Part shown: piece after piece, positions 50,213 through 63,164 of the stretch
How the letters are laid out: each line of letters opens with the position of its first letter
Position numbering within the stretch: position 1 is the stretch's first letter
Assembly (NCBI GenBank): GCA_001799695.1
Contig: MGTY01000095.1
Coordinates: forward strand, 1 to 64,000
DNA from: Elusimicrobia bacterium GWA2_69_24
GTDB lineage: Bacteria > Elusimicrobiota > Elusimicrobia > UBA1565
Length of the DNA: 64,000 bases
Reading direction: 5' to 3'
The notes under the pieces: model-generated
Database searches by the model: none
What the model was told of the DNA's origin: nothing
The model's input: only the letters and a program-made list of their open reading frames with translations
Translations under genes and position numbers: made by a program

Positions 50213-50830
50213 ATGGAAGAGTCGGCCGGGCTCGGACGCCGGATCAAGCGCTATCTCCTGACGGGCATCATCATCCTCGCGCCCATCAGCGTGACGCTGA
50301 TCCTCCTTCTGTGGTTCGTCTCCCTGGTGGACTACGTGGTGGGGCCCATCATCGTGGCCCTCATCGGCTACCGCATCCCCGGCCTCGGCCTCATCACCGC
50401 CTTCTTCGTGGTCTTCCTGACCGGGTTCCTGAGCACCAACATCCTGGGACGGCAGCTCCTGTTCGTGGTCGAGGAGCTCTTCCTGCACATCCCGGTCCTC
50501 AACTTCCTGTACCGGACCGCCAAGCAGATGACCGAGGCCTTCTCCTCCCGGGACAAGATGCCGTTCAAGAGCCTGGTGATGATCGAGCACCCGGGCCCCG
50601 GGGTGCGCAAGTTCGGGTTCCTGACCAACCACGTGCGTCTGGAGGCTGCGGGCGGCCCGGGAGAGGAAGTCGCGGTCGTCTATGTGCCCACCAACCACCT
50701 GTATCTCGGGGAGATCGTCCTGGTGCAGGCCGACAAGGTGACGGAGATGGGGCTGACGGGACCGGAAGGCATCCAGTTCTTCCTTTCCGCCGGGGCTTCC
50801 CTGCCCCGGGTCCTTACAAAGCGATGTTGA
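50213..50830 (+). CDS. DUF502 family membrane protein
   Basis: 205 aa; 'RIKRYLLTGIIILAPISVTLILLLWF', 'FLTGFLSTNILGRQLLFVVEELFLHIPVLNFLYRTAKQ'. Confidence 0.88.
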   Translation: MEESAGLGRRIKRYLLTGIIILAPISVTLILLLWFVSLVDYVVGPIIVALIGYRIPGLGLITAFFVVFLTGFLSTNILGRQLLFVVEELFLHIPVLNFLYRTAKQMTEAFSSRDKMPFKSLVMIEHPGPGVRKFGFLTNHVRLEAAGGPGEEVAVVYVPTNHLYLGEIVLVQADKVTEMGLTGPEGIQFFLSAGASLPRVLTKRC

Positions 50831-52463
50831 GGGTCAGCGAAGTCCGGTTGTCCCGGTAATCGAAATCGTCGGCGAAGCGCGAGTGGCGCTGGAGCCGCTG
50901 GTAGGACAACCCGACGTTCAGCCAGGGCCGTATCTTGTAGGCGAGGCCCGCGCTCCCGGAATAGACGTCGTCGCGCCGATTGGCCGTCTTCCCGCCCCGG
51001 GTCGAGGCCTCCGGATAGCGGTCGGTCTCGAAGCTCCCGTCCGCGGTCAGGCGCAGCTTCCGGTAGTCGTGGGTCGCCCCCAGGCCGAGGCTCGACGCGA
51101 CGTAGTAGCGGTTGCGCGCCGCGTCGAAGGTGGTCTCCTGCACGCTGCGGGCGGCCGAGAAGCGCAGGTCCGTCCGGCGCGCCAGCTTGTAGCCCAGCCG
51201 GATGGAGGTCAGCAGGTTGACGATCTCCTTGTCCCCCCCCGCGGGTGCGGCGTCGTAGCGCCGGAACTGCAGGTCCGCCTGGGCCCGCCCGGTGAGCTTG
51301 GAGGTGAGCCGGCCGTCGATGCCCGCTCCGGCCGAGTGGGACTTGGAATGGTTCTGCGCCCCGGCGGAATAGTGGATGGCCTCCCGGCGGTAGGCCAGGA
51401 AGAGCCGGGTCTTGGGCTGCAGCCGGATCCCGGCCTCGAACCCCGCGGAGAGCTCGTAGCGGTTCAAGGACGAGGCCAGGGCGTCGTTGAGGTAGCGGTG
51501 CATCCGGTGGCGCCCGTCCAGGCCGAACACGAAGAGCCGGCTGCGCGCCACGGAGACCCGGCCGCCGACCTCGTTCTCGAAGCGCCGCTGGCGGGCGACC
51601 AGCTCGCTGAACGCCGGGTCCTCCGTGTTCTTGTAGGAGTCCCACACGCGCCAGTCCGTCCCCCGCCGGCCGGTCTGGGCGTAGGCCAGGTCCACGTACT
51701 GGTCCACCGCGTTGTTGGCGCGGGGCTGGGATGTGTAATTCACCAGTTTGGCCTTGTAGTCGAGCTCCAGCCGCTGGCGGCGGCTGAAGGGCATGGCGAG
51801 CTTGGACCCGAGGACGTTGGTGGTGATCCAGGAGCCGCGCACGCCGCCGCCCACCCGGCTTCCGTCGGCCTTGTCCGGGGGCACGAGGTAGATGTTGTCG
51901 TCGTAGGTCTGGGTGAGGCCGTAGTAGGGGTGCAGGTCGATCACGTAGCGCATGTCCGGGGTCTTGAACTCGGCAAGCTTGGACACGCCGGCGGCGATGG
52001 CCTGGAGGGGGTCCCATTCCTTCGCGACCGCGGCCGGGGGCGCCGGGACCGCGGGGGCTCCGGTGACCTTGCCCGCGTCCGGGCCGGTGAGGGCCATGAT
52101 GCGGCCGGCCGTCGCGGCCGCCGCGGCTCCGGAGGGCGGAGTCACCGGCATTTCTCCGGAGTGGACCAGGACCTCGGCCCGGCCGTCGGAAAGCAGGTAG
52201 GTGAAGCTGTCGCCCTGGTCCGCGCGCAATGTGGTCCCGCCCGAGAGGAGGGTCGCGTCGCCCTGGAGCACGGTCACCTGGACGCCGCGGGGGATGGCGT
52301 AGCCGGGGAGGTCGGGCTTGAGATGGATGAGCTGTCCGCCCACCTGCAGGTCGAGGGTATCCTGGAAGCCGATCACCAGGAGCGCCGGCCCGTCGACGGG
52401 CGGCTGGGCGGACGCCGCGCCCGGGGCGGTCAGGAGAGCGAGAGCGAGGCCGAGTCTGTTCAT
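50814..52463 (-). CDS. FecR-like domain + outer-membrane beta-barrel protein
   Basis: 549 aa; signal peptide, N-term beta-rich 'LLVIGFQDTLDLQVGGQLIHLKPDL...VTVLQGDATLLSGG', C-term amphipathic strands '...YRDNRTSLTLNIAL'. Confidence 0.7.
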   Translation of the reverse strand: MNRLGLALALLTAPGAASAQPPVDGPALLVIGFQDTLDLQVGGQLIHLKPDLPGYAIPRGVQVTVLQGDATLLSGGTTLRADQGDSFTYLLSDGRAEVLVHSGEMPVTPPSGAAAAATAGRIMALTGPDAGKVTGAPAVPAPPAAVAKEWDPLQAIAAGVSKLAEFKTPDMRYVIDLHPYYGLTQTYDDNIYLVPPDKADGSRVGGGVRGSWITTNVLGSKLAMPFSRRQRLELDYKAKLVNYTSQPRANNAVDQYVDLAYAQTGRRGTDWRVWDSYKNTEDPAFSELVARQRRFENEVGGRVSVARSRLFVFGLDGRHRMHRYLNDALASSLNRYELSAGFEAGIRLQPKTRLFLAYRREAIHYSAGAQNHSKSHSAGAGIDGRLTSKLTGRAQADLQFRRYDAAPAGGDKEIVNLLTSIRLGYKLARRTDLRFSAARSVQETTFDAARNRYYVASSLGLGATHDYRKLRLTADGSFETDRYPEASTRGGKTANRRDDVYSGSAGLAYKIRPWLNVGLSYQRLQRHSRFADDFDYRDNRTSLTLNIAL

Positions 52464-53335
52464 CGCACGAAGGCCGGCACCACCAGTTTCTGTCCCGGGG
52501 TCAATTCCCCGCCTCTCTGGAGCCGTTCGCGGTTGGCTTCATAGAGTTCGCTCCAACGGTCCGCTTCGCCGTACACCTTGATGGCGATGCTGCGCAGCGT
52601 CTCTCCGGGCTGGACCACATGGATCCCCACCTCGGAGGCCTCCGACTGCGGTCCCTTCTCTAAGGATACCCGATCCTGCATGGCCTTTTCCAATTGGTCG
52701 AGCCGGCGCTTGGCCTGCTCCGCCTCCTGTTTGGCCTTGAGCGCCTCTTCCTTCACCATGGCCAGGTCGCGCTGCACGAATTCGGCCGGAACCTGAGCGG
52801 CGGCCGAAGACGGAACGGCGCCCACCGGGGCCGGGGCCGGGGCCGGGGCGGCTGGAGCGGGGACCGGAGCCGGCGCCGCGACGGGGACCGTGATGGGGGC
52901 GGCGGCAGGGGTCGGAGCCGGAGCGACGACCGGAGCCGTCGCCGGCGCGACGCCGACCGGCGGAGCCGCGGGCGCGCCGGAAACCGAGGATTCCCGCACC
53001 GTGGCGGACCAGCCCGTCCCGGGCGGGGGCTCGATGCCGAACCGGTGCGAGCGGCCCGCCAGCCCCTCCGGGAGCGGCAGGCGGTCGCCCATGACGGCGG
53101 AGAACTCCCCGTTCTGGACGGCGACGTAGCGCCCCTCCTCCCAGAGCAGGCTGCCCGCGCCGCCGGCGTCCCAGACCCGGAAGAAGAGCAGGAAGGTCCC
53201 GTTCTGGGGACGCCCGGCGCCGTCCTTCAGCTCGCCGCGGCACTGCAGGAGTTCCGCCCGCAGGGGAGCCGCCAGCAGGACCAAGGCGAGGACCCAGAAG
53301 CCGCAACGCGGAGCGCCGGGAAGCCGGGTTCTCAT
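52460..53335 (-). CDS. LysM-domain exported protein with Pro/Ala/Val-rich linker
   Basis: 291 aa; 'EVGIHVVQPGETLRSIAIKVYGEADRWSELYEANRERLQRGGELTPGQKLVVP'. Confidence 0.85.
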   Translation of the reverse strand: MRTRLPGAPRCGFWVLALVLLAAPLRAELLQCRGELKDGAGRPQNGTFLLFFRVWDAGGAGSLLWEEGRYVAVQNGEFSAVMGDRLPLPEGLAGRSHRFGIEPPPGTGWSATVRESSVSGAPAAPPVGVAPATAPVVAPAPTPAAAPITVPVAAPAPVPAPAAPAPAPAPVGAVPSSAAAQVPAEFVQRDLAMVKEEALKAKQEAEQAKRRLDQLEKAMQDRVSLEKGPQSEASEVGIHVVQPGETLRSIAIKVYGEADRWSELYEANRERLQRGGELTPGQKLVVPAFVR

Positions 53336-54582
53336 TGCAGGTCCCTCCTGATGTTCTCGACGAAGGCGGCGATGGGCCGGGAGTAGATGCTTCCTTCGCC
53401 GTCGCGCCCCAGCCAGGCGACGTCGCGGGTCAGGGTGAAGGCGGAGAGCGACGCCGGCCCGCGGTCCAGGAGCGGGAGGCTGTAGACCGCCAGGACCCGG
53501 AGCTTGGAATCGAGACGGTGACGGTACAGGAGACGGGTCTCCGAGTCGGTGGACCAGAAGAAGGAATCGTCCTTGAACATCGAGGCCGGCGAGCGGCCCG
53601 GCGCCAGATAGTTCTCCAGCACGGTCATCCCGGCCTTGGCCTCATGCCGGTAGAAGCGTCCGGTGCTGGAATCGCTGGACCAGAGATGCTGTCCGTCCCA
53701 ATACAGGCCGGAGGGGTTCGGCCCGGGGCTGGATAGGCTGCGCACGAGGCTGAAGCGTTCGTCCAGGCGCCGCACCTCGATGGTCCGCCTCCAGGAGTCG
53801 CACACGAAGAGGTTCTCATCGGAGACCGCGAGGCCGGTGATGTGGCTCCCCGGCAGGCGGACCGAGCGCACCGGTTCGAGGCGTCCGCCCCGCACGGCGT
53901 ATTCCTGGACGGATTGCGCGAGCCAGTCCGCGACGAAGAGGCGCTCGCCCCGCCAGACCAGCCCCGTGGGGTGCTCGTTAAGGATGGGATAGTCCCGCCC
54001 CTGCAGGCGGTACTGCTTGGACCAGAAGAATCCGAGGGCCGCCAGGCACACGGTCAGCAGGACGACGGCGGGCAGCCAGCGCAGGAGCGGCCCTTCCGGA
54101 GCCGGAGCCGGGGGCGACGCGACCAGGGCGCCGGGACGGGGAGGCTCCGCGGCCGACAACTCCCCGCCGCGGAGCTTCAGCGCCAGCCGGCGGCCGAGGA
54201 CTCCCACCGGCTCGGGGAGTTTGCCGCCATGCACGATCCGCTCCACCGTGTCCAGGAGCTCCTGGTTGCTGAAGGGCTTGGCCAGATAGTGCGCGGCCCC
54301 CAGCTGCATGACCTCCACGGCCGACTCCACGCTCCCGTACCCCGTCACCATGATGACCGGGGTCCGGCGGTCGGTCTCGCGCAGGGTCCGGAGTATCTGG
54401 AGGCCGTCCATCCCCGGCAGACGCATGTCCAGCAGGACGACGTCCGCGCCCTCCCGGGCCAGGAACTCCAGTCCCGTCGGGCCGTCCGCGGCCTCGAAGA
54501 CCTGATGCCCGTTGCGGCTGAGGACGTTGGACAGCGCCATGCGCATGTCCGCTTCGTCGTCGACCACCAGGATGCGCGCCAT
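53332..54582 (-). CDS. Response-regulator receiver + TM + beta-propeller-like periplasmic domain
   Basis: 416 aa from MARILVVDDEADMRMALSNVL; phospho-Asp 'VVLLDMRLPGMDG'; TM 'WLPAVVLLTVCLAALGFFW'; repeats 'GLVWRGERLFVADWLAQSV', 'GLAVSDENLFVCDSW', 'GLYWDGQHLWSSDS'. Confidence 0.8.
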   Translation of the reverse strand: MARILVVDDEADMRMALSNVLSRNGHQVFEAADGPTGLEFLAREGADVVLLDMRLPGMDGLQILRTLRETDRRTPVIMVTGYGSVESAVEVMQLGAAHYLAKPFSNQELLDTVERIVHGGKLPEPVGVLGRRLALKLRGGELSAAEPPRPGALVASPPAPAPEGPLLRWLPAVVLLTVCLAALGFFWSKQYRLQGRDYPILNEHPTGLVWRGERLFVADWLAQSVQEYAVRGGRLEPVRSVRLPGSHITGLAVSDENLFVCDSWRRTIEVRRLDERFSLVRSLSSPGPNPSGLYWDGQHLWSSDSSTGRFYRHEAKAGMTVLENYLAPGRSPASMFKDDSFFWSTDSETRLLYRHRLDSKLRVLAVYSLPLLDRGPASLSAFTLTRDVAWLGRDGEGSIYSRPIAAFVENIRRDLQ

Positions 54583-54584
54583 TT

Positions 54585-57500
54585 TCAGTTCCTCTTCCTC
54601 TCCGTGGGCAGGTTCATGACCGCCGTGCTCCCTTCGCCGCGCCGGCTCCGGAACTCCAGCGAGCCTCCCAAGGCCGTCGCGATGCGCCGGGCGATCGCGA
54701 TGCCCAGGCCGACGCCGCCGGTCTTCGTCGAGAAGAACGGGCGCCCGACGTCCTTCAGATGCTCCGGGGCCACGCCGGCGCCCGTGTCGGAGACGATGAT
54801 CCGGACCGAGCCGCGCTCCTGGTCGGGCCGCGCGGACACGGTCAGGGTGCCCCCCGCCTCCATGGCTTCGATCGCGTTCATCAGCAGCTGCTGCACGGCC
54901 TCCTTCAGGCGCCCCGAGTCCCCGCGCACGCGCGGCAGGCCCTCGGCGACCTCGGCGACGACCCGGATCCCCTTCTGCGCGCAGCGCCGCTCGACGTCGG
55001 CGAGCGCGGGGGTCAGCCATTGCGCGGCGCCCAGGCTCTCGGGCTTCAGGTTGAGCGGCCGCGTGAAGTCCACGAGCTGCTCCAGCCGCTCCTGCAGGGT
55101 CCCGATGGCGCGCAGTATCGCCTCCATCGCGGACCGTTCCTTGGTCCCCACCCAGAGGCCGGAGAGGCGGTCCTCGGCCAGGCTCCGGATGATGCCCAGC
55201 GGGTTGCGCACCTGATGGGCCACGCCGAAGACCAGGTCGTTGAGCTCGGTCTCGAACGCCTCCTGCGGCAGGCGTCCGGCCGGGCCTTCCGGCTTCATCG
55301 ACGCGAGCAGACGGTCCCGGAGCTCCTTCAGCTCCGAGCGCCGCTTGGCCAGTTCTTCCTCGGCCCCGGCGGCCTTCTTCTCGCTCGCCGCGAGCGCCCG
55401 TTCCCGGACCTTCAGTGATTCCTCCATCGCCCGGCGGCGGCTCTCGATCTCCGCCTCCGCCTTCTCCAACCGCTCCCGCAGGCGTTTATCCGAACCCCGC
55501 AGCAGTTCCTCGACTTCCTCGCGCTTCTGGCTGAGCTCCGCTTCCTTCACGGTGAAGGAAGCCTGGACGCGCTTCTCGACGGAAGCCTCCCGTGAGCGGA
55601 GTTCCTCTTCCCGCGCCTGGAGCTTCCGCCGCTCCGCCTCCAGCGACTCGGTGCGCAGGCGGACCGTCTCCTCCACCTGCTCCCGCGACCGCTCTTCCAG
55701 CTCCTCGCGGCGCCGTTGGAACTCGACTTCCAGCGCCGCACGTTCGGAGCCAATCTTTTTAGCATTTTCCGCTTTCAATTCCGAGCCTTTTTCCAGCATT
55801 TTCGCGGAATTCTCCCTTTCCAGCTCCTGGCGCCGACGAGCCGCCTCCTTCTCCAGCGCGCTCCGGGCCTCCTGCAGGAGGTCCCGCTCCCCCGCCAGAC
55901 GCTCCTGGAAGTCCGCTTCCAGCGCCGCCTGGCGCTCCTTGAACTGCGCTTCCAGCGCCGCCTCGCGCTCGCGCACCCCGGCATCGAGCCGCTCCGCGTG
56001 CTCGCGGAACTCCTCGGCTTTCTGCTCGGTCTGCCGGCGGATCTCGGCATCCTTGGCCTTGAGGACCCGGTCGGACCGGAGCCGCTCCTCGCGCTGGATG
56101 GCCGCCCGGAGGTCGGCCTCCTTGCGCAGGAAATCCTCCTCCAGCGCCTTCCGCTCGTCCTCCAGCCGCTCCTCGCGCCTGGCCAGTTCCTGGCGCAGGA
56201 CCGCATGCATGTCCTCAGAGGATTTCTGCAGCTCCGCCCGCTGGCTCTCCTGGGTCTCGGCCACCTGCTTGAGGAGTTCCTCTTCCCGGCGCATCCAGAG
56301 CCGCTCCAGCTCCGACTCCTTGGCCAGGTACTCCTTCTGGAGGACCTTCTCCCGGTCGCGGAACTTGCCTTCCAGCTCCGCGCGTTTGGATTCCAGCGCG
56401 GTCTGGCTCCGGACCAGTTCCTCCCTCTCGGCCGCCACGGACAGCCGGAGCTCGTCGATCTCGACCTGCCGCTCCGCCTCGTGCTTGGCGGCCTCGGCGC
56501 GCAGGACGACCTCTTTCTTGGCGAAGTCCTCGCGGAGCTCGCCTGCGAGCTCCTTCAGGCGCTTGCGGGACTCCTCCTGCTGCGCCTCCAGGTCGCCCTT
56601 GGCCTTGGCCCAATCCTGGCGCAGAGCCTCGCGCTCCGCCTCCAGACGCGAGTCGGCCTCGGCCTCGCGCTGCTCCATCGCCTTGCGCAAGCCCGTCTCC
56701 CGCTCGGCCGCCGCGGCCTGGAGATGCTTCTCCCGGTCCCGGTACTCCGACACGAGCTGGCCTTTGAGGTGCTCGAGCTCCCGGAGCTTGCGCGACACTC
56801 CGGCTTCCCGCTCCGCGTGCTCCCGGGCCAGGGCTTCGGCGCGCGCCTGGAAGGACTCCTCCAGCTCCTCCAGCCGCGTCCCCCGCTCCGCCTCGAACGC
56901 CGCGCGCAAGGACTCCAGGTCGCGGGCCCCCTGCTCGACCTCGGCCTCCTTCCCGGCCACGGCGTCCTTGGCCGCCTCGGCCGCGGACTTGATCTCTCCC
57001 TCCCGCCGGGCGACCTCCCCGCGCAGGACCTCCTCCTTGGTCTGGAAAGCCCGCTCCAGCTGGATCTCCCGGTCGCGGAGGCTGCGCTCGACCTGCAGCT
57101 TGGCCGTCTCCAGCTCCGCCGCCCGCTGGGCGGTCTGGGTCTCCAGCCGCTCGCGGACCCCGACCAGTTCCGTCTCCTTCTGGCGGATCGCGGTCTCCAG
57201 CTTGCCGCGCCGTTCCGCGAACTCCGCCTCGAGCATCGCGCGGCGGTGCTCCAGCTCCTCGCGCAGGGCTTGCCGCTCGACCTGGGTCTTGGCGGCGGCG
57301 TCCGCCTCGCGCTTGGAGAGCGCGGAGTTGAGACGCGCTTCGCGCGCCTCCTGCGTCCGCTCGAGTTCCGTCTCCTTCTCGCGGATCTGCTGCTCCAGCG
57401 TGAGCCGGGAATCCTCCAAGGCCTTCTCCCGCTTGGCCAGTTCGCCCTCGCGCGTCGCGACGGCGGCGCGCAGCACGGCCGCCCTTTCCTCGAAGTCGGC

Positions 57501-60500
57501 GGCGAGCTGGGCCTCCCGCTCCTGCAGGGAGAGCCGCGACTGCACCTTCGCGGCCTCCGCCTCCTTCTCGCGCTGGGCGGCGCGCGCCTCGACGCGCTCC
57601 TTCTCCTGCGCCAGTTCCGACTCGCGCCGCCGCAGCCCCGCTTCCGACTCCGCGGACCGGGAGGCCGCCTCGGCGTCGAGCATCGCGGCGCGCCGTTCGA
57701 GGTCCTCCTGCATGGCCTTGCGCTCCGCCTGCACACGGGCCGCGGACTCCGCCTCCCGCTTGCGCGCCGCGCCCTCCGCCTGCTCCAGGCGCTCCTTGAA
57801 GGTCTCCTGCAGTTCGGTCTCCGCGGCGAGGAACTTCTCCTCGAGGGAGACGCGCAGCGCCTCCGCGGCCCTCTGCTTGACCGCGAGATCGGCCTGCAAG
57901 GAGGCGGCTTCGCGTCCCTGGACTTCCTTTTCCTGGGCGAGGCGGCGGCGTTCCTCGGCGAGCGCGGTCTTCAACGCCGCTTCTCTGGCGGCGTACTCGG
58001 CTTCCATGGACGCCCGGCCCTTGCCGAACTCGCGCTCCAGCCGCTCCTGGCGGGCCTCGAAGGCCTTCAGCCGTTCGGCTTCCGACGTCTGGGACTTCTC
58101 CTCAAGGGAAGCGCGCAGGGCCTCCAGGGACTTCTGCTTGGCCGAAAAGTCCGCCTGCAGGGACGCGGCCTCGCGCCCCTGCGCCTCTTTCTCCAGCGCG
58201 AGGCGGCGGCGCTCCTCGGCGAGAACGGCCCGGAGCTCCGCCTCCTTCGAGGCGAAGGCCGCTTCCACGTCCTCGCGGCGCTGGGTGAACTCGCGCTCCA
58301 GCGCGATCTCGCGCTCCTTGCGCGTCTTCTCGGATTCGGCGGCCGCCTTCTCCAGTTCACGCCGCTGCGATTCGGCTTCCTGGATGAAGCCGGCCCGTTC
58401 CCGCTCCAGCGCCTCCTCGCGGCTGCGCAGGACGAGCTCGGCTTCGTGCTGACGGACCTCCAGCGCCCGCTCGCCCTCCCGAAAATCCTCCTCGAGCTGT
58501 ATCTTGCGCCGCTCCAGGCGGTCCATCGCCTGGTCGCGCTCCTTCTTGGCCGCGGTCTCCCGCTTGCGGTGGTCGGACTCCAGCTCCGCGAGACGGTGGG
58601 CGTACGCGTTCTCGAGCTCCGTCTCGTGGTCCTGGCTCTGGCTCTGCACGGCCAGGCGGAGCGTCTCCAGTTCCCGCTGCTTGGCCTCGAACTCGGTCTG
58701 CAGGGCGGCGCGCTGACTCTCTGTGAGGCCGGAGAGCTTGCGCTTGGAGTCCTCCTCCCAGCGGGCCTCCCGCTCGGCCAGCCGCTCGGTGAAGTCCTTC
58801 AGCTCCTTGGCCAGCCGCTCGTCGGCCTCGCGCTTGAGCTGGTCCTGCTTCTGCTCCCACTCGGTCTTGAGCTCGGTCTCCAGATGGAGGTAGTTCTGGT
58901 GGACGGACTCCTCCCGCTGGCGGTAGAGGGCGTCCAGCGCGGCCCGCTCCTGCGAGCTGCGCGTCTGGAGCTCCGTCGAGAGCTGGGCTTCCCGCGCGCG
59001 CAGCTCCTCCTTGAGGACGTCCTCCTTCTTCTTGAACTCGGCCTCCAGCGCGGCGCGCCGCTGGGCCAGCTCCGCCATCCGGGCCGCGAGGTCCGCGGAA
59101 TGGGTCTCCATGGCGGCCTGATGCTCCGCCTGCTGGCGGTCCCGCTCCTTGGCCATCATGCGGCGCTGCTGGTCCACCCAGGCGTCGTTCTGCCGCTGGA
59201 GCTCGTCGCGGGCGTGGGTGAGCCGCGCCTCGTAATCCGCCTCCAGCTTCTTGCGCTCGTCCTGACTGCGCGACTCCTGCTGGGAGACGGTCTGCCGCAG
59301 TTCTCCCTGCAGGCGGTCGGTCTCGTACTGCAGCCGGGCCCGGTAGTTCTCCCGTTCCGTGGCGACCTGGGCCAGCAGTTCGGCCTCCCGCTCCTTCCAC
59401 TGCTTGTCGAGAGCCCCTTCCCGGTCCAGGTGCGCTCGCTCCAGGCGCGCCTCCTTGGCCAAGAGCTCCTTCTGCAGCTGGGACCGGAGCTTCTCCGCCT
59501 CCAGCGCCCGGCGCTCGTCCTCCTCGCGCAGGGCCGTCCGCTCGGACTCCAGCCGCGCGGCGAGCTTGAGCTCGGCTTCCTCCTCCCACTGCCGCACGCG
59601 GCGCTGGAGGGCGTCCTCCTTCTCGGCCAGCGAGCGCTTCGCCCGCTCCTCCGCCTCCTCACGCTGGAGTTGGGCCTTGTGCGCCCAGTCCTCCTTCAGC
59701 TGCTGCTCCAGGCTCAGATAGTTTCCGTGCAGGGTCTCCTCGCGCCCGCGGTAGAGCTCGTCGAGCGCCTGCCGTTCCCGGGCCAGGGTCTGCTGCTGGT
59801 CCTCCACGAAGCGCTTCTCCTTGATGCGCCACTCCGAACCGAGTTCCTCCTCCCGCTTGCGGTGCCAGGCTTCCAGCGCCTCCCGGCGCTTGGCCAACTC
59901 GGCTTCCCGGCCGGCCGATTCGGAGTTCAGCGCCTCGAGATGCGCGGCGGCCTCGGACTTGAGCTGGTCGCGCTCCCGCGCGATCATGCGGCGGTGCCGC
60001 TCCAGCCACTCCTCCTGCTCCTTCTCCACGGTGGCGAGATGCGCGCGCTTCCAAGCCTCGAAGCGGACCTCGAGCTCGCCCTGCAGGCGGGTCGTCTCCT
60101 GGCTGAGGCGCGCCTGATAGTTGTCGCGCTCGGCGGAGACCTGGGCGTGCAGCTCGGCCTCCCGCTCCTGCCACTGCTGGTCGAGAGCCCCTTCCCGGTC
60201 CAGATGCGCCCGCTCCAGGCGCGCCTCCTTGGCCAGGAACTCCTTCTGCAGTTGGGAGCGGAGCTTCTCCGCCTCCAGGGCGCGGCGCTCACCCTCCTCG
60301 CGCAGGGCCGTCCGCTCGGACTCCAGCCGCGCGGCGAGCTTGAATTCGGACTCCTCCTCCCACTGCCGCACGCGGCGCTGGAGGTCGTCTTCGGCCGCCT
60401 TCATGGCGGTCTTGAGCTTCTCGGCGGCCTCCTCCTGCTGGAGCTGGGCCCGGTGCGCCCAATCGGCCTTGAGCTGCTTCTCCAGGCTCAGGTAGTTCCC

Positions 60501-63164
60501 GTGCAGGGTCTCCTCGCGGCCGCGGTAGAGCTGGTCGAGGGCGGTCCGTTCCCGGGTCAGGGTCTCCTGCTGTTCCGCGACGAAGCGTTTCTCCTTGACG
60601 CGCCACTCCTCGGCGAGTTCGGCTTCGCGCCGTCGGTGCTGATCCTCCACCGCCTCGCGGCGCTTGGCCAGCTCGGCCTCCCGGCCGGCGGACTCGCCGT
60701 TGAGCGTCTGCAGGTGCGCCGCGGCCTCGGCCTTCTGCTGCTCGCTTTCCCGCGCCAGCATCCGGCGATGGCGCTCCAGCCACTCCTCCTTCTCCTTCTC
60801 CACGGCGGCGACGTGCGAAACCTTCCAGGCCTCGAAGCGGGCGTCCAGCCGGGCTTCGGCATGGGCGAGGTCTTCCTTGTGCGTCCGGCGTTCGGACTCC
60901 ACCTGGGCGTCGCGCTCCTGGATGGCCTCGGCGAAGCGCTGGGCCTGCGCCTCCAGGGCCTTCTGATGCTGGTCCAGATAGCCTTCTTCTTTCCGGGTCC
61001 AGAGCGACTGGAGAGAGCTCTCCATCTCCAGATACTTCGCCTCGCGCTGGGCCTCGCGCTCCTGCTGTCCCTCGATGAGGGCCAGACGCTCGCCCTCGAC
61101 CTTGCGCTCGCGCGCCTGGAACTCCTCCCAGACCGCCTGCTTCTCGGCCAGGAGGCGCGCGCACTCCTCCTTCAGCCGGACGACCTCGAGGTCCAGCTCG
61201 GAGAGCCGCTTCTCGCGTTCGAGGAGCTCCCCCTGCTGGACCTCCTTGAGCTTGCGCGTCTCGGCCTTCCACTCGGCGGCGCGGCGTTCGTGCTCCGCCT
61301 CCAAGTGGCGGGCCTGCTGCAGCAGATGGGTGCGGGAGGCTTCCTTGAACTCCCGCAGCTCCGCGTCGCGGCGCTCGCGCAGCTCCAACTCGCGGCGCTC
61401 GTACGCCGTCTTGAGCTCGGATTCGACGCGCGCATAGTCCTGCTTGAGCTTCTCGGACCGCGCGAACAGCTCCGCTTCCTCGCGCTGGCGCCGCAGGTCG
61501 AACTCCTCCTTCATCCGGGACAGCTCGACCTTGGCCGCGGAGCGTTCCTGCTCCAAGGCCAGTTCGTAGCGCCGCACGAGTTCCGCCTCGCGCTGGAACC
61601 ACTGCTTGTCGAGGTTCTTCTCCTTAAGGATGCAGTCGGCGATCACCGTCTGCTTCCAGGCCTTGAACTGCTCCTCGGCCACCTGCTGATTGCGCTCGGT
61701 CTCCGCGACCTTGGCCGCGAAGGCCTGGTCCACGGCCCGGGAGCGGGCCGCGAATTCCGCCTGGAGCGAGGCGCGTTCGGCGGCGACCGCACCCTCGTGC
61801 TCCTCCAGGAGCTCCACCTTGCGCCGGGTCCACTCATCGCGCAGGGAGTTCTCCTTCGCGAGCACCCCTTCCTGCAGCTCGATGTGGCGGGCCTGGAAGG
61901 ATTCCTCCAGGGCCTTCTCCCTCGCCTGCAGCTTGTTGACGCCTTCGGCGGACCGCGCGTTGAACTCGGCTTCCAGCGACATGCGCAGGCGCTCGGCCTC
62001 CCTCTCCACGGCGCTCTCGCGCTGGTCCAGCTCGCGGCAGCGGGACCGGTATTCCTCCTCCAGGGCCTTGGCGCGGCCGCGCGCCTGCTCGGCGGCGGCG
62101 GACTTCTCCTTTTCCAGCTCGGCCTCGAAGCGCTGCAGGGACTGCGCTTCCTGCCGGACCTGCCGGTCGCGGAGCTCGCCCTCCAGGGCGGCGTAGCGGG
62201 TCTCGACTTCGGCCACGCGGGTCTGGAAGGCCTCCTCCAGCTCCCGGCGGCGCGTCTCCAACAGGGTCTCGATCTCAGCGGAGCGGTCGGCGAGGGCGCG
62301 GGCGCGCTCCGAGAACTGCTTCTCGACGGCGCGGTCCAGCTTCTCGCGGGCCTCCTTGGTGCGGGACCAGAGCCCGTTCTCCAGCTCGGCCCAGGCGGCC
62401 TGCAGCTCGGCCTCGCGCTTGTTGTACTTCTCCTGGAGCGACAGCTCCTTGGCGCGGTACTCCTTGACCAGCGACTCCTCGCGGCGCTGAGCCTTGAGCT
62501 CGCCTTCCTGGGCGGTCGCGGCCAGGACGCGCTGGAACTCCTCGTTCTTGCGCTTGAGTTCGAGGAGCTCGCGCTCCTTCATCTCCAGTTCGGCCTCACG
62601 GTTCTTGAGGGTGTTGAGGATCTCCTCGTCGCGCTTCTGGCGCAGGCGCAGGACCAGCTCCTGGTCCTTCTGGTAGCGGGCGGCGAGCTCGGCCTTCTCG
62701 CGCTGCGCGCTCATGAGCTGGGCGTCGCGCTCCTCCAAGGCCCGGCGCAGCTGCCGCCGCTCCCCCTCCTTCGACTGCAGGCTCTCGCGCCACTGCTGGA
62801 CCTGGGCGGTCAGGGCGGCCAGCTCCTCCTCGGTGCGGCGGCGTTCGCCCTCCACGCGATGCCGCTCCTCTTCCCGGACCTCCAGGCGGATGCGGTCCCG
62901 CCAGCGCTCCGTGCTCCCCTCCTGCTTGCGCCGTTCCTCCTCCCAGTTCTTCGCCTCCGTCTGCCAAGTCTCGACCTGCTTGCGGAGCTCGACGTTCTCC
63001 TGCGCGACGAGCTGTTCCTTGTTCTTGGATTCCTGGAGAGTGCCCTTGAGGCGGACGTTGAGATCCTGGAGGTCGCGGATCGTGGCCACGGCCCCCCGGA
63101 TCGCAAGTCTAGCCGCCTCTAAGTCGGTGATCTCTTTGAATTGTTCTTCATCCCACGGATTCAT
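54585..63164 (-). CDS. Giant coiled-coil histidine kinase (2,859 aa)
   Basis: Continuous ORF; ~2,500+ residues of Glu/Arg/Lys/Ala/Leu coiled coil, C-terminal HisKA 'LVFGVAHQVRNPLGIIRSLAED' and HATPase 'VQQLLMNAIEAM', 'DTGAGVAPEHLKD', 'GLGIAIARRIATALGG'. Confidence 0.9.
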   Translation of the reverse strand: MNPWDEEQFKEITDLEAARLAIRGAVATIRDLQDLNVRLKGTLQESKNKEQLVAQENVELRKQVETWQTEAKNWEEERRKQEGSTERWRDRIRLEVREEERHRVEGERRRTEEELAALTAQVQQWRESLQSKEGERRQLRRALEERDAQLMSAQREKAELAARYQKDQELVLRLRQKRDEEILNTLKNREAELEMKERELLELKRKNEEFQRVLAATAQEGELKAQRREESLVKEYRAKELSLQEKYNKREAELQAAWAELENGLWSRTKEAREKLDRAVEKQFSERARALADRSAEIETLLETRRRELEEAFQTRVAEVETRYAALEGELRDRQVRQEAQSLQRFEAELEKEKSAAAEQARGRAKALEEEYRSRCRELDQRESAVEREAERLRMSLEAEFNARSAEGVNKLQAREKALEESFQARHIELQEGVLAKENSLRDEWTRRKVELLEEHEGAVAAERASLQAEFAARSRAVDQAFAAKVAETERNQQVAEEQFKAWKQTVIADCILKEKNLDKQWFQREAELVRRYELALEQERSAAKVELSRMKEEFDLRRQREEAELFARSEKLKQDYARVESELKTAYERRELELRERRDAELREFKEASRTHLLQQARHLEAEHERRAAEWKAETRKLKEVQQGELLEREKRLSELDLEVVRLKEECARLLAEKQAVWEEFQARERKVEGERLALIEGQQEREAQREAKYLEMESSLQSLWTRKEEGYLDQHQKALEAQAQRFAEAIQERDAQVESERRTHKEDLAHAEARLDARFEAWKVSHVAAVEKEKEEWLERHRRMLARESEQQKAEAAAHLQTLNGESAGREAELAKRREAVEDQHRRREAELAEEWRVKEKRFVAEQQETLTRERTALDQLYRGREETLHGNYLSLEKQLKADWAHRAQLQQEEAAEKLKTAMKAAEDDLQRRVRQWEEESEFKLAARLESERTALREEGERRALEAEKLRSQLQKEFLAKEARLERAHLDREGALDQQWQEREAELHAQVSAERDNYQARLSQETTRLQGELEVRFEAWKRAHLATVEKEQEEWLERHRRMIARERDQLKSEAAAHLEALNSESAGREAELAKRREALEAWHRKREEELGSEWRIKEKRFVEDQQQTLARERQALDELYRGREETLHGNYLSLEQQLKEDWAHKAQLQREEAEERAKRSLAEKEDALQRRVRQWEEEAELKLAARLESERTALREEDERRALEAEKLRSQLQKELLAKEARLERAHLDREGALDKQWKEREAELLAQVATERENYRARLQYETDRLQGELRQTVSQQESRSQDERKKLEADYEARLTHARDELQRQNDAWVDQQRRMMAKERDRQQAEHQAAMETHSADLAARMAELAQRRAALEAEFKKKEDVLKEELRAREAQLSTELQTRSSQERAALDALYRQREESVHQNYLHLETELKTEWEQKQDQLKREADERLAKELKDFTERLAEREARWEEDSKRKLSGLTESQRAALQTEFEAKQRELETLRLAVQSQSQDHETELENAYAHRLAELESDHRKRETAAKKERDQAMDRLERRKIQLEEDFREGERALEVRQHEAELVLRSREEALERERAGFIQEAESQRRELEKAAAESEKTRKEREIALEREFTQRREDVEAAFASKEAELRAVLAEERRRLALEKEAQGREAASLQADFSAKQKSLEALRASLEEKSQTSEAERLKAFEARQERLEREFGKGRASMEAEYAAREAALKTALAEERRRLAQEKEVQGREAASLQADLAVKQRAAEALRVSLEEKFLAAETELQETFKERLEQAEGAARKREAESAARVQAERKAMQEDLERRAAMLDAEAASRSAESEAGLRRRESELAQEKERVEARAAQREKEAEAAKVQSRLSLQEREAQLAADFEERAAVLRAAVATREGELAKREKALEDSRLTLEQQIREKETELERTQEAREARLNSALSKREADAAAKTQVERQALREELEHRRAMLEAEFAERRGKLETAIRQKETELVGVRERLETQTAQRAAELETAKLQVERSLRDREIQLERAFQTKEEVLRGEVARREGEIKSAAEAAKDAVAGKEAEVEQGARDLESLRAAFEAERGTRLEELEESFQARAEALAREHAEREAGVSRKLRELEHLKGQLVSEYRDREKHLQAAAAERETGLRKAMEQREAEADSRLEAEREALRQDWAKAKGDLEAQQEESRKRLKELAGELREDFAKKEVVLRAEAAKHEAERQVEIDELRLSVAAEREELVRSQTALESKRAELEGKFRDREKVLQKEYLAKESELERLWMRREEELLKQVAETQESQRAELQKSSEDMHAVLRQELARREERLEDERKALEEDFLRKEADLRAAIQREERLRSDRVLKAKDAEIRRQTEQKAEEFREHAERLDAGVREREAALEAQFKERQAALEADFQERLAGERDLLQEARSALEKEAARRRQELERENSAKMLEKGSELKAENAKKIGSERAALEVEFQRRREELEERSREQVEETVRLRTESLEAERRKLQAREEELRSREASVEKRVQASFTVKEAELSQKREEVEELLRGSDKRLRERLEKAEAEIESRRRAMEESLKVRERALAASEKKAAGAEEELAKRRSELKELRDRLLASMKPEGPAGRLPQEAFETELNDLVFGVAHQVRNPLGIIRSLAEDRLSGLWVGTKERSAMEAILRAIGTLQERLEQLVDFTRPLNLKPESLGAAQWLTPALADVERRCAQKGIRVVAEVAEGLPRVRGDSGRLKEAVQQLLMNAIEAMEAGGTLTVSARPDQERGSVRIIVSDTGAGVAPEHLKDVGRPFFSTKTGGVGLGIAIARRIATALGGSLEFRSRRGEGSTAVMNLPTERKRN

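Follow-up and report, generated by a model that had tools for sequence, protein, structure and literature searches.

Two-component signalling is usually drawn as running from the outside of the cell to DNA. LapD is a precedent for inside-out adhesin control: it binds c-di-GMP and sequesters a protease, and through it a cytosolic signal crosses the inner membrane outward and governs an adhesin at the surface (PMC3032545). The T9SS, which reviews describe as specific to the Bacteroidetes (PMC7463736, PMC5445135), is under two-component control by PorXY, in which PorX works via the sigma factor SigP (PMC4800418). PorE of the T9SS PorE-PorP-type B CTD complex consists of a TPR domain, a modelled five-bladed propeller, a CRD and an OmpA_C domain (PMC5053529). 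PorE binds the barrel PorP, which in turn binds a type B CTD protein; according to the authors, the TPR or the propeller domain of PorE may be where PorP binds (PMC9143113). An external propeller is also found in PknD of Mycobacterium tuberculosis, which has a cytosolic Ser/Thr kinase domain and one TM helix and for which outside-in sensing has been proposed. The PknD propeller is six-bladed.

The window analyzed here is a 64,000-nucleotide stretch from Elusimicrobia bacterium GWA2_69_24. It encodes a response regulator that shares with PknD a cytosolic signalling domain, one TM helix and an external propeller, but its signalling domain is a receiver. It would share with LapD the outward transfer of a cytosolic signal, with a receiver as the input and a propeller as the output, and PorXY has no such membrane-spanning propeller regulator. 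Among the titles and abstracts listed for open-access full text on receiver domains, transmembrane output and propellers, none describes the receiver-TM-propeller architecture. If the mechanism proposed below is correct, a receiver with its output on the far side of the membrane, encoded next to genes for outer-membrane export or adhesins, would let the cell control its surface by phosphorylation without transcription. The system would then also be an equivalent, under regulation, of PorE-PorP anchoring in a phylum other than the Bacteroidetes.

Architecture of the regulator

The regulator gene (416 aa) lies on the minus strand at 53332..54582, exactly the coordinates given in a preliminary description made from the sequence alone. 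The protein was defined from the open reading frame and its translation, an AlphaFold model and an orthologue alignment. The preliminary description proposed a CheY-like receiver with a phospho-Asp motif, and the domain analysis bears this out. The receiver spans residues 1-118 (54229..54582, minus strand), with the Pfam Response_reg match covering residues 4-113 (E = 1.2e-31). The active site is complete (D8, D9, D52, T80 and K102; DDDTK), and this residue set identifies D52 (54427-54429, minus strand) as the phospho-Asp. Pfam and NCBIfam detect no DNA-binding, enzymatic or RNA-binding output domain in the protein, in agreement with the earlier statement that DNA-binding and enzymatic outputs are missing.

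All structures reported here are predictions. The full-length AlphaFold2 model computed on ten orthologues (pLDDT = 84.3) places the receiver (1-118) first, followed by a low-confidence linker of ~45 residues (123-165), a helix (170-192) and a propeller of five four-stranded blades, with strands between residues 205 and 403 and closing strands at 196-199 and 408-411. The Pro/Ala-rich linker (residues 119-165; 54088..54228, minus strand) is predicted to be disordered (pLDDT < 50 over most of its length), and its length differs among the aligned orthologues. The proposed TM helix was found at residues 170-192 (54007..54075, minus strand) in both AlphaFold models. Over the 74 family members its mean Kyte-Doolittle hydropathy is 2.05, and it is hydrophobic in every one of them. 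K/R residues near the helix number 3.2 on the receiver side versus 1.9 on the other side, and the charge bias is in>out in 54 of the 74 proteins and out>in in 13. If the receiver is cytosolic, the TM helix requires that the propeller be periplasmic.

The preliminary description called for a structure prediction of the C-terminal part, for which it had suggested a beta-propeller-like domain. The helix and propeller modelled alone with 36 homologues (pLDDT = 95.8, pTM = 0.89) refine this domain to five four-stranded blades. The propeller (residues 196-411; 53350..53997, minus strand) is assigned from AlphaFold, Foldseek and profile matches, and its blades lie at residues of about 205-242, 248-284, 290-326, 332-368 and 379-411, the last completed by 196-199. 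The models confirm an intact receiver of the CheY type that a disordered linker joins to a single TM helix and a predicted five-bladed propeller. This architecture is well supported. It is kept complete in nine orthologues with 36-59% identity and across the phylum, which places it far beyond chance.

Distribution and cytosolic types

The preliminary description also called for a search for the receiver-TM-propeller architecture. The TM-propeller module is present in 124 of 295 genomes sampled across the Elusimicrobiota and in 48 of 57 genomes searched among close relatives, a count that includes the window's own genome, and the receiver-bearing form recurs in about 40 loci; the protein is therefore no chance fusion. 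The genome containing the window has five family members. Four matches outside the Elusimicrobiota are weak and correspond to generic propellers, and a plasmid search for the module returned no match. Several of the gene contexts described below are MAG contigs with truncated genes, and gene starts were assigned mechanically.

The cytosolic part of the 74 first-set members is an intact receiver in 31, a degenerate receiver in 12 and TPR in 6 (assigned by Pfam), and the rest have long coiled coils or other sequences. These types cluster strongly in the tree built from 73 propellers, although not each is one clade, and the tree has a total of 7 changes between types. Sixteen coiled-coil members form the sister clade of the receiver clade containing the window protein (9 members), with support of 95/97 for the joint clade. 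A separate clade of ten degenerate-receiver members (support 100/100; loci L033, L047, L048, L049, L095, L113, L118, L119, L122 and L124) adjoins LysM-barrel genes and has no upstream kinase. The TPR and coiled-coil members share the propeller without phosphorylation, indicating that a phospho-switch is not essential to the basic role of the propeller. Because one propeller naturally carries phosphorylatable, dead and receiver-less versions, the mechanism can be tested by comparison.

A giant soluble kinase precedes the regulator gene

The gene directly upstream of the regulator, across a gap of 2 nt, encodes a soluble histidine kinase of 2859 aa (54585..63164, minus strand) with no TM helix (highest hydropathy 1.27). 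Its C-terminus matches HATPase_c in Pfam (E = 2.9e-21) and an AtoS/ZraS-like core in NCBIfam (E = 1.7e-40). NCBIfam and a kinase alignment place the core at residues 2641-2858 (54591..55244, minus strand), and the alignment identifies His2650 (55215-55217, minus strand) as the phospho-acceptor. AtoC/NtrC-type regulators are the closest named family of the window receiver (NCBIfam). Unlike those systems, the pair consists of a soluble kinase and a membrane-spanning regulator, and its output involves neither sigma-54 nor DNA binding.

Proline is absent from residues 61-2600 of the kinase, which are enriched in E, A, R and L, a coiled-coil-like composition. This proline-free region of about 2500 residues could possibly extend some 370 nm if it formed one continuous helix. 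Giant relatives of 2078-2599 aa occupy the equivalent position in L052, L053, L055 and L056. The N-terminal segment of about 60 aa resembles the N-terminus of coiled-coil-TM-propeller proteins from related genomes and of the own-genome paralogue at L031 (E = 1e-8, from a search against very few sequences). Adjacent kinases across the family have no credible TM helix; three marginal hydrophobic peaks fall in the ATPase domain. The kinases have no sensor domains of their own, and several are bare cores of 217-231 aa.

Kinase and receiver are coupled across loci

An upstream kinase was scored where a same-strand kinase gene lay ≤500 nt 5' of the regulator gene. Such a gene directly precedes 37 of 41 intact-receiver genes versus 1 of 13 degenerate ones when both sets are pooled. 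In the first set the counts are 27/31 versus 1/12, leaving 4 intact-receiver genes without an upstream kinase. In the second set of 20 further loci they are 10/10 versus 0/1 for the clearly degenerate receiver, omitting two partly altered receivers at L134 (EDDSK, no kinase) and L136 (DPDVK, with a kinase).

The acceptor residues follow the same pattern. Alignment of the first set shows the phospho-His in all 27 kinases beside intact receivers and in none of the 8 beside others; in these 8, which accompany TPR, coiled-coil or degenerate-receiver proteins, His is replaced by Arg or Gly. In the second set the phospho-His is present in 6 of 8 readable kinases beside intact receivers and in 0 of 4 otherwise. 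At L148:2998-4971 and L149:2803-4719, the H-box His of the kinase is Arg or Asn although the adjoining receiver is intact. Given these exceptions, joint retention of His and Asp is not universal; the association is strong, not absolute. Once kinship is corrected for, no more than 1-2 independent changes remain, which a sign test cannot use, and the p-values, which ignore kinship, are therefore descriptive.

The simplest reading is that the adjacent kinase-receiver pair is a phosphorylation route that disappeared from kinase and receiver alike in some lineages. Gene order and acceptors that are mostly kept or lost together make kinase coupling of the receiver-TM-propeller proteins well supported. 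Kinase-like genes without the His lie beside genes for TPR-TM-propeller or other receiver-less proteins (L107, L109, L115, L116, L117, L123 and L138-L141). Their products are possibly ATP-driven pseudo-kinases that work without phosphotransfer.

Envelope genes adjoin the propeller genes

The start of the gene downstream of the regulator overlaps the regulator stop codon by 4 nt (ATGA). It encodes a secreted LysM protein of 291 aa (52460..53335, minus strand) with a signal-peptide-like N-terminus and a C-terminal LysM domain (Pfam E = 1.5e-6). A second 4-nt overlap (ATGA) joins the LysM gene stop to the start of a gene for an outer-membrane beta-barrel of the BBP2_2/EpsL kind (549 aa; 50814..52463, minus strand). 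The barrel matches BBP2_2 in Pfam (E = 9.2e-14) and EpsL TIGR03014 below the cut-off (E = 2.8e-19). The giant coiled-coil kinase, the receiver-TM-propeller, the secreted LysM protein and the EpsL/BBP2-like barrel form a tight four-gene unit. LysM-containing and barrel genes are likewise downstream of the regulator in L051, L052, L053, L055 and L057.

In many other clades, the propeller genes adjoin a gene for a barrel with a C-terminal LysM domain and one for an Fn3/Ig protein with a CHU_C/T9SS-sorting-like C-terminus. The context family HMMs were built from the loci described, and the naming of these neighbours therefore rests on per-locus Pfam and NCBIfam results. The LysM barrels in L090, L109 and L116, but none in the window, match PorP_SprF (PF11751) above the cut-off, and LysM barrels match the PorV family below the cut-off (E = 1.5e-20 and 4e-18). 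A neighbour in L116 scores above the CHU_C and TIGR04183 cut-offs, and neighbours in other loci score near or below them. The window's own genome has a locus of this LysM-barrel/adhesin type (L032, contig C65) with its own kinase and receiver-TM-propeller. The coiled-coil-TM-propeller members adjoin Wzz-type polysaccharide genes or a BBP2 barrel. In L031, L034, L036, L038, L043 and L045 their genes are directly 3' of Wzz-type polysaccharide co-polymerase genes, and this adjacency hints that they take part in exporting exopolysaccharide. The preliminary description did not extend to the solubility of the kinases themselves, the phylum-wide occurrence of the unit, or its LysM and barrel or T9SS-like neighbours.

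These loci resemble the PorE-PorP-type B CTD complex (PMC9143113, PMC5053529) in combining a five-bladed propeller, with TPR in some members, with an adjoining PorP/PorV-like barrel, a domain that binds peptidoglycan and a protein whose C-terminus is T9SS-sorting-like. The likeness of the propeller to PorE is one of predicted fold and context, and its link to a PorP-like barrel is that, in related loci, its gene adjoins genes for PorP/PorV-LysM barrels. In PorE the propeller is part of a periplasmic lipoprotein that also has OmpA_C, whereas here it belongs to an inner-membrane protein whose receiver is cytosolic. PorE has its TPR, CRD and OmpA_C on one outer-membrane lipoprotein, whereas the window protein is receiver-TM-propeller only. 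Peptidoglycan binding here falls to LysM, which is on the barrel or on a separate protein.

Proposed mechanism and alternatives

The preliminary description implied inside-out signalling. The supporting parts of that claim hold: the helix is of the membrane-inserting kind, a cytosolic receiver would place the propeller in the periplasm, and the regulator is paired with the kinase encoded next to it; phosphotransfer, the direction of the signal and a propeller-barrel contact are what we infer. We consider the chances evenly divided that this is a two-component system whose membrane-spanning coupler regulator acts inside-out on surface secretion or anchoring. The soluble kinase, which has no membrane sensor, would phosphorylate Asp52 of the cytosolic receiver. 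A resulting change in receiver conformation or dimerization may pass through the linker and the single TM helix, so that the periplasmic propellers are rearranged or differently displayed. The propeller would then engage, release or position an outer-membrane barrel complex anchored by LysM. For the window clade, this target would be the separate LysM protein and the EpsL/BBP2-like barrel, possibly an exopolysaccharide outlet; for most other clades, it would be the LysM-fused PorV/PorP-like barrel together with an adhesin whose C-terminus is T9SS-sorting-like. The outcome would be secretion or anchoring of surface material controlled from inside, without transcription. Domain logic points outward, since the kinases are soluble, the receiver is the acceptor and the protein has no other output. 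The constant LysM and outer-membrane barrel or T9SS-like neighbours give the propeller a plausible target, and a contact altered by receiver phosphorylation is proposed by analogy with PorE-PorP. Extending this to a phylum-wide inside-out system, in which soluble kinases drive regulators that act directly on T9SS-like or exopolysaccharide export complexes of the outer membrane, gating or anchoring them, and in which sister lineages that lost the His and the Asp use the propeller as a phosphorylation-free coupler, is more tentative and falls a little short of an even chance.

Propellers are common sensors and scaffolds, which speaks against the coupler reading. The regulator may be a constitutive scaffold that ties a cytosolic complex to the envelope for localization or trans-envelope tethering, with phosphorylation tuning only a cytosolic partner and leaving the propeller unchanged. 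The same TM-propeller bears receivers, dead receivers, TPR and long coiled coils, as expected of such a scaffold, and the N-terminal segment that the window kinase has in common with coiled-coil-TM-propeller proteins agrees with it. We consider it unlikely, though the strongest of the alternatives, because conservation of the receiver-clade active-site residues together with the kinase gene would be needless for a passive scaffold. The reverse direction, with the propeller reading a periplasmic ligand or envelope state and the receiver setting the kinase/phosphatase balance or serving as a phosphate sink, is less probable still. The adjacent kinases have no sensor domains of their own, and PknD is an analogous kinase-TM-NHL-propeller protein whose propeller gives a weak profile match (1rwi, E = 0.001). 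However, receivers usually accept signals rather than originate them, no other regulator appears in the gene-order tables as a constant neighbour to relay a signal, and the constant neighbours are envelope parts.

The nearest PDB folds to the propeller in Foldseek, with target TM-scores of 0.67-0.74, are 3nok, 3mbr, 3nol and 2iwa, all of them five-bladed glutaminyl cyclases of the plant/bacterial type. These best fold matches, reaching about 0.74, raise the reading that the periplasmic domain is a glutaminyl cyclase-type enzyme working on exported proteins. Identity is only 13-15%, the cyclase family is absent from the Pfam results on the propeller, and a match of this kind is what any five-bladed propeller would give. 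The C-terminal part as a single sequence returned only noise from the PDB; the required 36-sequence profile resembles the LRP YWTD, designed Pizza, virginiamycin B lyase (Vgb) and NHL/PknD propellers and includes no cyclase. An enzymatic role is accordingly very improbable, and the coupler regulator remains the preferred reading.

T9SS-like parts in the Elusimicrobiota

One paper whose full text mentions both the T9SS and Elusimicrobia does not report a T9SS in the phylum. GldM/PorM motor proteins were matched in 0 of 60 genomes in a search run without a positive control. The neighbours described above and the following matches suggest that T9SS-like parts (SprA, PorV/PorP and CTD adhesins) are widespread in this little-studied phylum. 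SprA/Sov TIGR04189 matches occur in 129 of 150 Elusimicrobiota genomes, mostly in proteins of ~1800 aa, with none above the cut-off, and one full-length SprA-like protein scores 166 bits against a cut-off of 200. Candidate SprA/Sov-like translocons are located at L127:1173-6479 and on contig C109 of genome G000 (L126).
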